Shown here: positions 23,024 through 60,944 of the stretch, piece after piece
How the letters are laid out: every line of letters starts with the position of its first letter
Numbering within the stretch: the stretch's first letter is position 1
NCBI GenBank assembly: GCA_018817125.1
Contig: JAHIUN010000005.1
Coordinates: 1 to 64,000, forward strand
Length of the DNA: 64,000 bases
Source: Patescibacteria group bacterium
GTDB taxonomy: Bacteria; Patescibacteriota; Gracilibacteria; UM-FILTER-43-11
Reading direction: 5' to 3'
Position numbers and translations under genes: made by a program
The notes under the pieces: generated by a model
Database searches by the model: none
Told to the model about the DNA's origin: nothing
What the model saw: the letters and a program-made list of their open reading frames with translations, nothing else

Positions 23024-23097
23024 GTTGTCAACAATAGGATAAATCGGTTAAAATTAAGTTAGACTGAAACATACGTTTTTTGCTTATAATTTCCTCT

Positions 23098-23280
23098 ACA
23101 CTTTCATCTATGGGATTCCTATTATCACCTTGCGCTGTGGTGTAAGGTTGCGGAGACCCACCTGGTTTACCCGGGGATTAAAGGAGGCAAAGAACGGTGT
23201 TTCGGTTGTTCCGATATATTCGGATTATGGGCCGATGGTGGACTACAATTGCCCCACTATTGAATTGGTTGTCATTTTAA
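23098..23280 (+). ncRNA. Candidate structured RNA, possibly 6S-like
   Basis: The gap between polX and the next gene has a -10 box (TTATAAT near 23086). It is followed by a G+C-richer, hairpin-forming stretch: ACCTTGCGC...TAAGGT, CCTGG...CCGGGG and CCGATATATTCGG. The phrase GCGGAGACCCACCTGG reminds me of bacterial 6S RNA, but I cannot verify this. No coding frame of interest is present. Confidence 0.35.
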
Positions 23281-28273: not shown

Positions 28274-28400
28274 TGTCCTTCGACACTTCGGTACTTCGAC
28301 AAGCTCAGTACTCAGTGCTCAGGACATGCTTCGACAAATTATTTTGCCACCTTCATGCGCCGACAAGATTCCGCAGGCGAAGTGCTGAGCTTGTCGAAGC
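28274..28400. repeat. TTCGACAAGCTCAG-type repeat cluster
   Basis: ACTTCGACAAGCTCAGTACT at about 28292 is inverted as GCTGAGCTTGTCGAAGC at 28384-28400. Related pieces (CCTTCGACAC, CTTCGACAAA) lie between. The cluster abuts the 3' end of tmRNA. This repeat type is known from many genomes. Confidence 0.7.
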
Positions 28401-28401
28401 A

Positions 28402-28819
28402 TGGAGATGGCCGGAATCGAACCGGCGTCCAAAGATGAAGACTGAAAATCTCTACAATCATAGTTGGTTTATTTTTTTCGACGCCGGCATAGAAACGAAC
28501 AAAAACACAGACGCTTATCCGGGTTAAATTGTCGACGCTTATCCCTCCGGAGGCGTGATAAGCGCTTAACCTGCTGAATAACGCCTGATCAGGTTAGCAG
28601 GTGTCCCCTGAGCAGACGAAACCGCGAATTGGCGGTTAGGACGCGTAAAACAATTAAGCCATAACAGGAACAAGTGCTCCGTTGGCGATTGCTTTGACAC
28701 GTGCAAAGAAATTATCTTTTGCATTTGTTGTGCGCTGGGCTAATTAGCAGGCAGACAGCGCGATACCTGGATTGCCATTTAAAGTCTTGAGTCATCTTTG
28801 TCAAAACCAAGTCATCCCC
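28402..28819 (-). ncRNA. ssrA: Transfer-messenger RNA (tmRNA)
   Basis: The 3' part reads GGACGCCGGTTCGATTCCGGCCATCTCCA, a T-arm plus acceptor strand. It pairs with the 5' end GGGGATGA at 28819 over seven base pairs (one G-U). Length about 418 nt; CCA is not encoded. Between them an open frame ends AIANGALVPVMA followed by TAA at 28656-28654. The tag frame opens after a TAA and reads ...NAKDNFFARVKAIANGALVPVMA, longer than the usual 8-15 residues, with the small hydrophobic C-terminus expected for protease recognition. The resume codon cannot be fixed by eye. tmRNA rescues stalled ribosomes together with SmpB. Confidence 0.9.
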
Positions 28820-56835: not shown

Positions 56836-58395
56836 TTATTTGGCAATCGTAATGGCCCTTGTTTCCCTTAGCACATTCACTTTTACGGTGCCCGGGTAGG
56901 CGAGTTCTTTTTCGATCTTGCGGGCAATATCGTGCGATAGCTTAATGGCAGCCAGGTCATCGATTTTATCCGGTTTCACCATAACGCGTATCTCACGTCC
57001 TGCCTGGATGGCGTAGGCTTTATCGATTCCGCTGAAGCTGTGAGCCAGATCTTCAAGATCCTGCAGACGTTTTAGATAGGTAGCCAGCGTTTCACGCCGG
57101 GCGCCGGGCCGTGAAGCAGAAATCGCGTCTGCGGCATGGACGATCATGGCAATCGGGGATTCAAACGGCACTTCTTCATGATGCGCTTCGGCCGCGTGGA
57201 TCACCTCTCGCGGTAAACCGTATTTCTTTAAAATATCCCGGCTGATCAACGCGTGGCTTCCTTCAATCTCATGATCCACCGCCTTACCGATGTCATGCAG
57301 AAAGCCAGCGGTTTTGGCGAGTTGCACATCCAGCCCCAATTCCCCAGCCATACCGGCCGCCAGAAAACCGACTTCCATGCTGTGCTTAAGCGCGTTTTGA
57401 CCGTAACTGGTACGGAAGCGGAGTCGGCCGATGATTTTGATCAGATCAGGATGAAGTCCGAAAATCCCCATTTCCTGAGCAGCCTTTTCGCCAAAGTCGA
57501 CCATCATCTGATTGATTTCCTTTTTCGTTTCTTCCACAATTGTTTCGATCCGTGCTGGGTGGATACGTCCGTCTTCAATCAGCTTTTCCAGCGCTCGTTT
57601 GGCCACATACCGGCGCACCAGATCAAATCCGGAGATCACAATGGCTCCCGGTGTGTCATCCACAATCACATCTACACCGGTCAGGTGTTCAAAGGCATTG
57701 ATGTTACGGCCTTCACGGCCGATGATACGACCCTTAATATCATCCCCCGGCAACTGCACCAGGGTTTGAGTGGATTCGGAAGTGACTTCGGAGGCGATCT
57801 TCTGAATAGCCTGAGCGATGATGTTTTTAGCACGCTTTTTCGAATCTTCTTTAACGTCAACCTCCACCTTGTTGTAGCGCTCCACAATTTCATCTTTATA
57901 ATCCCGTTCCACGTTTTCGAGCAGCATTTCCTTAGCTTCTTCTTTACTCAGCTTGGTGATTTCAGAAAGGGCTTCTTCCTGTTCTTTATAAATGGCATCC
58001 AGCTTTTCTTCCTCTATTTTCAAATCTTCCATTTTTTTATGGCAGGTCTCTTTGAAGTTTTCATTTTCCGTGATCTTTTTTTCAAGCTGATCTTCCTTAT
58101 TATTCAGGCGCTCCTCTTGTTTTTCCAACTGTTTACGCCTTTCTACTTCTTCTTTTTTTGCCTCATTGATAATGTCGAGGGCCTTATCCTTGGCATCAAT
58201 TATTTTTTCTTTGATCTTGGTTTCAACGGTACTGGCTTTACTCTCAAGGTCTTTTAGGTGTTTTTCGATTTTGGCTATTTCCGAATCCGCCTGAGCCCGG
58301 ATTTTTTGCAGGCGCTTACCGCCTTCCATTTGGAAATAACCATAGATCGCCCCACCCCCTATTGCCAGCCCGAGGATTAAAAATAAAACACTCAT
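56836..58395 (-). CDS. rny: Ribonuclease Y
   Basis: A 519-aa endoribonuclease. An N-terminal membrane helix (VLFLILGLAIGGGAIYGYF) is followed by a long coiled coil (residues ~25-200, ERRKQLEKQEERLNNKEDQL). A KH domain (GRIIGREGRNINAFEHLTGV) and an HD domain (TAGFLHDIGKAVDHEIEGSH) complete the protein. It initiates mRNA decay at the membrane. The length is the standard for RNase Y. The gene has an unusually long upstream region with a structured element, which may allow feedback on its own mRNA (inference). Confidence 0.95.
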   Translation of the reverse strand: MSVLFLILGLAIGGGAIYGYFQMEGGKRLQKIRAQADSEIAKIEKHLKDLESKASTVETKIKEKIIDAKDKALDIINEAKKEEVERRKQLEKQEERLNNKEDQLEKKITENENFKETCHKKMEDLKIEEEKLDAIYKEQEEALSEITKLSKEEAKEMLLENVERDYKDEIVERYNKVEVDVKEDSKKRAKNIIAQAIQKIASEVTSESTQTLVQLPGDDIKGRIIGREGRNINAFEHLTGVDVIVDDTPGAIVISGFDLVRRYVAKRALEKLIEDGRIHPARIETIVEETKKEINQMMVDFGEKAAQEMGIFGLHPDLIKIIGRLRFRTSYGQNALKHSMEVGFLAAGMAGELGLDVQLAKTAGFLHDIGKAVDHEIEGSHALISRDILKKYGLPREVIHAAEAHHEEVPFESPIAMIVHAADAISASRPGARRETLATYLKRLQDLEDLAHSFSGIDKAYAIQAGREIRVMVKPDKIDDLAAIKLSHDIARKIEKELAYPGTVKVNVLRETRAITIAK

Positions 58396-58612: not shown

Positions 58613-58782
58613 TGCTAATAATTTTGGGTTATATTACTTTTTCATTTTATACTAGAAATTTGTATTTTCAAAATGCTTTTTCCCTTTTCCAAAAATATTT
58701 AAAAATGGCTTAAATAAGCCAAATAATTTTTTTTATCCACTAGGCCGCCTCCCCGCTAAATAAAAAAAGAGAAGTAAAGGGG

Positions 58783-58811
58783 TTGATTTTATTTTTTAAA
58801 TTTGCTATAAT
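58783..58811 (+). promoter_or_regulatory. Strong promoter of the repeat RNA
   Basis: TTGATT (58783-58788), exactly 17 bp, TATAAT (58806-58811); a second TATAAT lies at 58815-58820. Confidence 0.8.
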
Positions 58812-58819
58812 AGTATAAT

Positions 58820-59578
58820 ACAAAAGAAAAAATGATCATTTACATATGGGGCGACAGTGGGAATAGTCTGCTTGGGAAAACAAAAATCAAATAGACCTCT
58901 CTTGATTCCGTTCGCGGGATTGAGTCCGGTCTCTGGTTCTATGCTCTCAGGCAGTCTGATCCTACTGTCCGATAGTGAGAAGAGTCTGTCTAGGAAAACA
59001 AAAATCAAAATCTCCTCCGTCCGCTTTCATCTTTCGTAGCTTGCTACGGAGAATGTACTGGCGGTCGGTGGTCTCTGGTTCCATGCTCTTAGGCAGTCTG
59101 ATCTCACTATCATGTATCGGTGAGAAGAGTTCGCCTAGGAAAACAAAAATCAAAACTTTCATCTTTTGTGGCTTGCTACGGAAGATGGATCGGTTCTGGC
59201 TTTATGTTCTTGGGCGGACTTCTCTCACTGATTGTGTTACCGCTTTCTCACTTCCGTACCTGTTTGCTTCGGCGTTCAGTTGCGTGGTGAGGTTTGTGGC
59301 TTTGGCCTTTCATTTCTGCCTTCGGGTGGTTCTGAATGGTCGGGTCGCTTTTCTCCTCTCAAAGCAAAATAAAAGCTCATTTCTTGACCGCTTTCGGCCT
59401 TCGTAGTTTACTATGGAGAATGTGGCGGGTGAGTATGAACACCTTGTTTGGTTTTGTTGGAGTGTAGTGGTCTGTCATTTTGTTTTTTTAAGACAGGATG
59501 TCGGACGGCTACGTTTTCAACGGTTTCGCCGTCGGTGGGAGACTAAAAAAACCTTTATCTTCGGAAAAAGGTTTTTTT
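58820..59578 (+). ncRNA. Candidate long non-coding RNA built of tandem ~120-145-nt units
   Basis: Between the promoter above and an intrinsic terminator lies a region without a convincing gene. CTAGGAAAACAAAAATCAAA (58989, 59137; TTGGGAAAACAAAAATCAAA at 58872) recurs three times, and GGTCTCTGGTTCTATGCTCT twice, at 58928 and 59069, with a decayed third copy near 59195. Hairpins recur too: CGTAG-CTTG-CTACG (59035), CGTAG-TTTA-CTATG (59402), CTCAC...GTGAG (59104-59124). Stem positions vary as G-C or G-U, which suggests selection for structure. ORFs crossing it on either strand translate the repeat and look spurious. No RNase P, SRP, 6S or intron signature was found. Confidence 0.6.
59545..59578 (+). 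terminator. Intrinsic terminator of the repeat RNA
   Basis: AAAAAAACCTTT-ATCTTCGG-AAAAAGGTTTTTTT. Confidence 0.85.
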
Positions 59579-59579
59579 A

Positions 59580-59690
59580 TGTCTGATCTCAGATTTGTGA
59601 TTTCTGATTCAATTTTAGATTTTGAAATTTTACATTTAAGATTTAGATCAGAAATCAGACATCAAACATCTGAGATCAGAAATGTTATAT
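59580..59690. repeat. TCTGATTTC/AGATTT word repeat with inverted arms
   Basis: GTCTGATCTCAGATTTGTGATTTCTGA is echoed in inverted form by ATCAGAAATCAGACATC and CTGAGATCAGAAATG. Same word family as 37798-37834. Confidence 0.55.
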
Positions 59691-60944
59691 TTTCTCCCAA
59701 GCTTTATCCTGGCGGCAGAGGAGGTCGCGGGCTTTTTCGGGATACTTCATAATCAACTTTACCAATCGTTCCATCCGCACACGATTCTGAGATCCTTTTA
59801 CCAGTATCAGGTCATCAGGTCTTAGAAAATCTTTGAGAAAATGTCCGGCTTCTTCCGAATCAAAAAACGTATACACATTGTCTTCGGCCATGCCGGCTTC
59901 AATAGCCCCTTCTTTAATAGTGGAAGCTTCCGATCCTACCGCTATTAATACCTTCGCGGCTTCAGCCCCCTGGGTTCCCAGGGTTCTGTGGGCTTCTTTG
60001 TTTAAGTCTCCTAACTCATTCATGGTTCCGAGTACCGCGATTTTACGTTTGGCGGGCAGTTCCGCTAATAGTTCCAACGCTTTGGTCATGCTGGTGGGTG
60101 AAGCGTTGTAAGAGCTGTCGATGATCGTGCTGTCATTTATGCCCGGAAGAGGATTCATTCTGCTGGAGGGCAGTTTGAAATCGGCTAATGCTTCCGCGCA
60201 TTCCTGCAAATTCATTCCCAGTTTCAATCCTACCGCGATGGCAGGGAGTAGTACATACACCTGAAAACGCCCCAAAAGAGGGACTTTGAAAGGCAGAGAT
60301 TCCCCTTTATAGCTCACCTGAAAACGGATTTGTTTGCTGGAAAGCGTTATGTCGCTGACCCCGACATCCATTCCTTCACCTAATCCATAACGCACCCTGT
60401 GGGCGCTGGTCTCCATCGATTTGACCATCGGATCGTCAAAATTCAAAACAGCCATCCCATTGATGGGCATATGGCGGATAAGGCTGTTTTTTTCTTTTCG
60501 AATATCTTCCAGGTTTTCGAATTGTCCTTTTTCTAAATGTACAGGGTTTACGTTAGTCACGATGCCGATTTTGGGCGGGGCGATTTTAATTAGTTTTTTG
60601 ATATCTCCCGGTTTATCCGCTCCCATTTCCAGAATGATTTTTTGATAAGGCTCAGGCTCTTTGAATAAAACCCGTTTTAATATTTTAAACCATGCTACCG
60701 GTGATGAAAAACCGGATTGTTCTTCCTGTAAAATAGCCAGACTGATGCCCACTTCCGTATTGAAGCCTTTTGGGCTGCTATAAACTTTGAACTGCTTTTT
60801 CAACAGATGGGCAATCGCTTCTTTGGTGCTGGTCTTTCCGATACTTCCGGTGATGGCGATAACCTGAACACGATGCTTTTTTAAGTAGTGCCTTGCTTTA
60901 TGAACAAGGATTTTGGTGATCAGAAATCGAAATAGGGTTTTCAT
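59685..60944 (-). CDS. Mur ligase family protein (MurF-like)
   Basis: A 419-aa protein. VIAITGSIGKTSTKEAIAHL is the ATP-binding loop (GS-x-GKTST), ILEMGADKPGDIKKLIKIA and IGIVTNVNPVHLEKGQFENL the substrate/metal region, then VLNFDDPMV and the C-terminal ligase domain (TIIDSSYNASPTSMTKALEL). It matches UDP-MurNAc-tripeptide-D-alanyl-D-alanine ligase (MurF), though it is slightly shorter and lacks the full N-terminal UDP-binding domain, starting almost directly at the central domain. It may be a MurF-like ligase with another substrate. Monocistronic. Confidence 0.82.
   Translation of the reverse strand: MKTLFRFLITKILVHKARHYLKKHRVQVIAITGSIGKTSTKEAIAHLLKKQFKVYSSPKGFNTEVGISLAILQEEQSGFSSPVAWFKILKRVLFKEPEPYQKIILEMGADKPGDIKKLIKIAPPKIGIVTNVNPVHLEKGQFENLEDIRKEKNSLIRHMPINGMAVLNFDDPMVKSMETSAHRVRYGLGEGMDVGVSDITLSSKQIRFQVSYKGESLPFKVPLLGRFQVYVLLPAIAVGLKLGMNLQECAEALADFKLPSSRMNPLPGINDSTIIDSSYNASPTSMTKALELLAELPAKRKIAVLGTMNELGDLNKEAHRTLGTQGAEAAKVLIAVGSEASTIKEGAIEAGMAEDNVYTFFDSEEAGHFLKDFLRPDDLILVKGSQNRVRMERLVKLIMKYPEKARDLLCRQDKAWEKI

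Follow-up and report, generated by a model that had tools for sequence, protein, structure and literature searches.

The DNA window analysed here, 64,000 nt of a Candidatus Peregrinibacteria genome (G000), very likely encodes a stand-alone structured noncoding RNA (ncRNA) of ~760 nt on its plus strand (58783-59579); transcript data are not available. It is a large orphan RNA that falls into no family tested and appears to be built from known parts, namely a boxA, a putative leader-trailer-like closure and duplicated hairpins. By a narrow margin we favour the reading that it is made with an antitermination system of the rRNA type and displays repeated protein-binding loops. The antitermination half of this reading is well supported by the sequence, the protein-binding half and hence the function are inferred.

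The locus starts with a promoter (58783-58811, plus strand) consisting of TTGATT (58783-58788), a spacer of 17 nt and TATAAT (58806-58811) with an extended TTTGC before the -10 box. All homologues with sequence at this site show a TTG-type -35 box, the 17 nt spacing and TTTGNTATAAT at the same position. An intrinsic terminator formed by an inverted repeat lies at the other end (59544-59579, plus strand). The minimum free energy of the 762 nt RNA is -307.9 kcal/mol compared to -216.0 kcal/mol (sd 7.1) for shuffled sequences, corresponding to z = -13. Moreover, each of its three units folds singly into one long arm (z = -8.1, -6.2 and -9.4 for units 1, 2 and 3).

The divergent neighbour is rny, encoding RNase Y (56836-58395, minus strand), whose product is 93% identical to the copy on JAFGCR010000037.1, a Candidatus Peregrinibacteria MAG from a series labelled Zod and the closest relative of G000 that bears a name. 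The taxon names used here rest on only a few such relatives. The convergent neighbour (59685-60944, minus strand) is a gene which we take to encode a MurF-like ligase, named from its sequence without a family search; it adjoins the ncRNA in several relatives too. Between rny and the ncRNA we found a palindrome, TGGCTTAAATAAGCCA (58706-58721), possibly a regulatory site or a piece of the rny leader. Similar TGGCTT..AAGCC palindromes are present in several relatives. An imperfect inverted repeat with arms of 31 nt (59579-59683) directly follows the ncRNA terminator. The same window also holds a 6S RNA (23058-23212, barely over the cut-off) and a tmRNA (28399-28819).

The body of the RNA is dominated by three tandem units on the plus strand, each with a stem of a 5’ strand (U5) and a 3’ strand (U3) and an A-rich internal loop. 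Unit 1 (58853-58969) comprises U5 (58853-58875), the A-rich loop (58876-58891), a variable tip (58892-58933) and U3 (58947-58969). Unit 2 (58971-59111) has U5 at 58971-58993, the loop at 58994-59009 and U3 at 59089-59111. Unit 3 (59116-59232; U5 59116-59138, loop 59139-59154, U3 59210-59232) is of the last type and nearly all paired. The underlying 40 nt copies begin at 58852, 58970 and 59115, resulting in start-to-start distances of 118 and 145 nt. A recurring hairpin with a YUUR loop forms the tip of unit 2 (59021-59056) and of unit 3 (59153-59188), and a third copy is located inside the 3’ domain (59388-59428, all plus strand). The original prediction had described the promoter, the gene-free stretch, the three units, this distant extra hairpin copy and the terminator, and all of them were confirmed. 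The sequence it gave as shared by the units needs only a minor correction, as CTAGGAAAACAAAAATCAAA occurs unchanged in units 2 and 3 and unit 1 reads CTTGGGAAAACAAAAATCAAA instead.

Covariation of the unit stem (~23 bp), proposed as a check in the original prediction, is pronounced. In an alignment of 27 units (A3) two-sided changes occur in 20 of the 23 pairs. The number of cells with two-sided changes is 80 where 25.5 are expected, and none of 500 shuffles was as good. Sliding the register of U5 and U3 against each other drops the pairing from 87% to ~40%. A3 excludes four units bearing indels, and the 3’ strand of one genome (G002) was re-registered by hand before alignment. Internal units mostly retain two stem mismatches (columns 11 and 15 of A3) and end in GAUCUC. 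The last or sole unit shows more complete pairing and ends in CUUCUCUCACUGAU or similar.

Each unit carries the same A-rich internal loop, GAAAACAAAAAUCAAA, which hardly changes among close relatives and can be recognised in nearly every one of the RNAs. Past the loop, the tip has been lost or swapped even between the congeners G000 and G001. From this constancy of the loop and turnover of the tip we infer that the loop, and not the tip, is the working part. The number of units varies as well: among 16 complete RNAs ten have a single unit, G007 has two, G000 and G016 have three, G003 and one of the two copies in G012 (G012a) have four and G010 has five. Within one RNA of the relatives some units are nearly identical to each other. 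As the counts stem from MAG assemblies, tandem copies may be miscounted. With unit numbers from one to five and one unit in ten of the 16 complete RNAs, the ncRNA grew by unit duplication, as originally claimed.

Just 3’ of the promoter the ncRNA carries a boxA, GATCATTTACA (58834-58844, plus strand), a putative NusB/S10 antitermination site with the consensus GWUCHUUNAMA. It is found in all 16 ncRNA leaders of the family, and the positions G.TC.TT.A.A are invariant in the 16 sequences (alignment A1). By itself the motif is no rarity, as the window contains 5 matches against an expectation of 4.0. Being short, it is convincing only because of its fixed place in 16 relatives. We call it boxA since the same element occurs in the rRNA leaders of the family and NusB is encoded: rRNA leaders of six family genomes carry GCTCTTTGAAACC, GTTCTTTAAAACAC, GTTCATTAACAAC, GTTCATTAACAGC, GTTCTTTTGAATC and GATCTTTTGAATC, likewise after their promoter, and the NusB gene is present in 16 of 18 family genomes including G000. 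The rRNA leader of G000 is truncated at a contig edge, so the comparison rests on the other genomes. Taken together, the ncRNA likely uses boxA antitermination, whereby readthrough is inferred from sequence alone.

Further putative boxA-led transcripts were noted. In G272 a tmRNA-like RNA (L186, G272:C128) is preceded by a promoter and boxA (GCTCTTTGAAA). A second boxA-led transcript within the family (L253, L254 and L258 on G008:C73, G005:C112 and G002:C1) shows hairpins followed by GGCCAAAAACAAAAACAAA-like words; it extends over 500-800 nt ahead of similar membrane protein ORFs in G008 and G002 (..HFKKLIWYAFIPAF.. and ..HLKKLIWYGTVPAF..).

Downstream of unit 3 follows a 3’ domain (59233-59530, plus strand). 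Its structure is predicted by a folding model only and no covariation test was made: an A-rich box (59356-59376) faces GGUUUUGUUGGAG (59450-59462), and the fold of 59347-59466 reaches z = -2.7. The words are conserved in relatives. About a dozen RNAs have a long 3’ domain with pairable A-rich and UUUUGUU words; it is short in G010, G012 and G003.

Directly before the terminator lies a strand of 11 nt, the T element (GUCGGUGGGAG, 59531-59541, plus strand), which is complementary to U3 of the last unit, here unit 3. Since U5 and T are both complementary to U3, the two pairings compete. In 16 of 18 RNAs, no other downstream window is as good a partner for U3 as T. The U3:T helix is 93% paired, compared to 85% for U5:U3, and exhibits 21 two-sided changes, a value reached by none of 2000 shuffles (15 distinct sequences). 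Within the family alone the signal is modest, with 16-20 of 2000 shuffles as good. These changes were counted by script; MAFFT lost the register between U3 and T once other families were included. A covarying complementary 3’ strand as expected for leader-trailer closure of the rRNA type is hence present, its partner being U3 rather than the strand closest to boxA. Downstream of T, most family members have a separate terminator of the classical kind.

The ncRNA was found in 16 of the 18 genomes of its GTDB family with E = 4.5e-9 or better, using a sequence model of its first 91 positions (R1). BLAST recovered pieces of it in several family members, and inspection of the DNA upstream of rny genome by genome revealed it in nearly every one. 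The two genomes without a match are G006, where rny was not detected, and G014, where rny is split across two contigs. Wherever one contig covers both, the ncRNA lies divergent beside rny, except for an extra copy in G012. In G004, G005 and G016 the contig ends between the two; adjacency is compatible with these data but not shown. G012 holds two copies of the ncRNA (L034, L033), a one-unit RNA beside rny and a four-unit RNA away from it.

None of the 4227 families of Rfam 15 matched at gathering score over the window ncRNA, its 16 homologous loci or the RNAs of other families. Matches below threshold mostly concern microRNA families and fall on the inverted repeat just past the terminator (59579-59683); a weak match to rne5 remained far under its cut-off. 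RNase P was rejected, as the ncRNA has no match to RF00010, which is located elsewhere in 14 of 18 family genomes. RF00010 was not found in G000, a genome 89% complete. The family-specific sequence and structure of GOLLD, ROOL and OLE gave no Rfam match in the window ncRNA either. An explanation as coding and repeat ALTERNATIVES was likewise rejected: a crossing ORF of 143 aa is not conserved in the homologues, whose longest plus-strand ORFs range from 24 to 137 aa, and tblastn matches do not keep to one frame but track the DNA repeat. All matches of the hairpin word in G000 are inside the ncRNA, with no copy elsewhere in that genome, and it does not qualify as a REP or MITE element. Solely in G016 four copies of the word occur elsewhere in the genome, so the hairpins may sometimes move. 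We also considered the A-rich loop as a mimic of translation start regions and discarded this, the motif being upstream of only one of 45 window genes. With regard to the original prediction, the inference of a structured RNA is supported by its retention in 16 of 18 family genomes and by the covarying stem, and its claims that the RNA is noncoding and no known large RNA held. The boxA leader, the T strand competing for the last unit, the synteny with rny and the wider distribution were absent from it.

Searches beyond the family with R1 and a second model (R2) showed that additional families of the class have boxA with a hairpin after it, of the form GGGAGnAACCUG ... CAGAUnnUCUCUC. Several of these matches entered the training of R2, whose scores for them are therefore no independent evidence. 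Neither model included the 3’ half of the hairpin, which hence provides independent support. Three of these RNAs are apparently stand-alone (G263 in family f24, 355 nt; G315 in f31, 372 nt; G325 in f32, 199 nt). All three share the T element, with a U-run directly after T. The G263 RNA folds with z = -10, and it and the G315 RNA adjoin a gene which we take to be rmuC-like, named from sequence. The RNAs of other families share leader, hairpin and T only; the A-rich loop is absent. We thus regard them as relatives of the leader module and claim no homology of their bodies to the window ncRNA. A phylum-wide search in a sample of 380 genomes yielded three matches outside the class, all chance-like. 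Several weak R1 or R2 matches within the class turned out to be coding DNA or bare promoters and were not counted, and class-wide BLAST with the G263 RNA returned mainly AT-rich noise.

The boxA-hairpin module is also found ahead of other genes. In f29 the module forms the leader of 16S rRNA itself, where ACAUUUAGAGUGUAAUAGAGAAACC pairs with the 16S trailer and the leader strand AGAGAAACC after boxA pairs with it over more than 20 bp. The f29 leaders L246, L248 and L250 keep AGAGAAAC past boxA, and the trailer pairing of >20 bp was seen in G298 and G300. In some other families the gene behind boxA and hairpin has a ribosome-binding site and is predicted to encode a membrane protein. Leaders of this type precede protein-coding ORFs in G024, G326, G276 and G304 (L202, L203, L204, L242); the proteins have a single membrane segment at the N terminus and a tail of low complexity rich in A and K. 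In two more families (L243 in G269, L252 in G331) such leaders lie directly before transporter-like ORFs, which are possibly boxA-regulated genes.

From promoter and boxA through a paired element and the body to a complementary 3’ strand, the order of parts matches E. coli rRNA, from which we infer transcription with an antitermination complex and closure by U3:T. In E. coli NusB binds boxA, and boxC located 18-19 nt downstream pairs with the emerging trailer; in the model boxC is meanwhile held near the exit channel (PMC10250234). As in the E. coli rrn leader (boxB-boxA-boxC), the window ncRNA is long and untranslated with boxA just past the promoter, and an element downstream of boxA pairs with a 3’ strand, a role that AGAGAAACC fills in the 16S leader of f29. 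Unlike an rRNA operon leader, it has no rRNA inside, U3 lies close by and T at the end, and the units are duplicated in tandem. Known examples of boxA in non-ribosomal transcripts are suhB (PMC5725501) and CRISPR arrays, in which boxA likewise precedes a long array of noncoding repeats (PMC7862264 citing Stringer et al.). In contrast to those arrays, which consist of direct repeats with spacers, the units are structured covarying hairpins; cas genes were not searched. GOLLD, ROOL and OLE are also large, highly structured, noncoding and of unknown or only partly known function, but the ncRNA is chromosomal beside rny, varies in unit number, has a boxA and lacks an Rfam match. Sponge RNAs of the CsrB/CsrC type repeat a conserved loop motif in varying copy number, as the ncRNA does. 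However, their motif is a GGA hairpin loop, whereas here it is an A-rich internal loop of 16 nt; a link to csrA was not tested.

In our preferred reading RNA polymerase would load the NusB/S10 antitermination complex at boxA, allowing the long untranslated transcript to escape Rho. The hairpin strand adjacent to boxA would act like boxC of rRNA. At the end of transcription U3:T pairing would close the 3’ domain similar to a leader-trailer helix; the U3:T helix with its immediate U-run would itself be the terminator in three other families. For such a closure we see slightly more reason to doubt than to accept it. The finished RNA would be a multivalent scaffold or sponge for a protein recognising the A-rich loop, with valency set by the number of units. 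A protein-binding module is the best reading of a constant unpaired loop with covarying stem and variable copy number. It is nevertheless the weakest step and no more than a possibility, being inferred without a known protein partner. RNase Y is an attractive candidate on account of the rny synteny and of its reported preference in S. aureus for a G with A/U-rich sequence after it (PMC4608709), but the synteny is lost outside the family. As ten of the 16 complete RNAs have a single unit, multivalency is not required.

Several alternatives deserve consideration. The conserved synteny with rny would fit an RNA that regulates RNase Y or serves it as a decoy, since in each unit a G is followed by unpaired A/U-rich sequence next to a stable helix, as at sites which RNase Y cuts. 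In A/U-rich RNA the S. aureus enzyme is reported to cleave on the 3’ side of G (PMC4608709), a preference which fits the GG-AAAACAAAAAUCAAA loops of the units. We consider this unlikely: the boxA-led RNAs of other families adjoin rmuC-like or other genes and not rny, the second copy in G012 is away from rny, and a cut site would need no such constancy of sequence. A precursor of small RNAs is hardly better supported. Here the long, nearly perfect U5:U3 helices of 20 bp and more would be RNase III sites freeing A-rich loop pieces, with the leader-trailer helices of rRNA as analogy and an array format in its favour. Against it stand the fixed mismatches in internal units (columns 11 and 15 of A3) and tips differing even among congeners.

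Size and strong fold would be consistent with a self-assembling RNA like GOLLD, ROOL or OLE, the conserved A-rich loops making RNA-RNA contacts. Large self-assembling RNAs use A-minor and kissing contacts (PMC12286853). Conserved kissing loops were however not found and a variability of one to five units is hard to square with a defined cage, so we doubt this option too. Still less likely is an attenuator in which U5:U3 as antiterminator and U3:T-UUU as terminator would switch a downstream gene upon ligand binding by the body. The pairings are mutually exclusive and related boxA-hairpin leaders precede ORFs in other families, but both in the window and in several relatives T has a second terminator behind it, and the gene beyond is convergent. 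An array of dispersed repeats or a remnant of coding repeats without RNA function can be practically ruled out. The further hairpin copies in G016 and the crossing ORFs speak for it; it is contradicted by the two-sided covariation of the unit stem, the absence of the hairpin word elsewhere in G000, the lack of ORF conservation and the constant promoter and boxA.

A bolder version of the preferred antitermination reading, against which the balance leans slightly, is a class-wide non-ribosomal RNA of Peregrinibacteria transcribed and closed like rRNA. Nus factors bound to boxA would tether the leader hairpin while the body loops out, until T captures U3. This capture would close the RNA and, outside the family, also terminate it. 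One family would have duplicated the leader hairpin into an array of A-loop binding units.

The ncRNA represents a new, strongly covarying RNA family, and it comes from a candidate phylum for which few descriptions of regulatory RNAs exist. The competition of U5, U3 and T provides a clear, testable model of how a transcript may be closed and ended, and the natural series of one to five units permits a comparison of valency across species. Its boxA leader points to antitermination of the rRNA type serving a non-ribosomal structured RNA.
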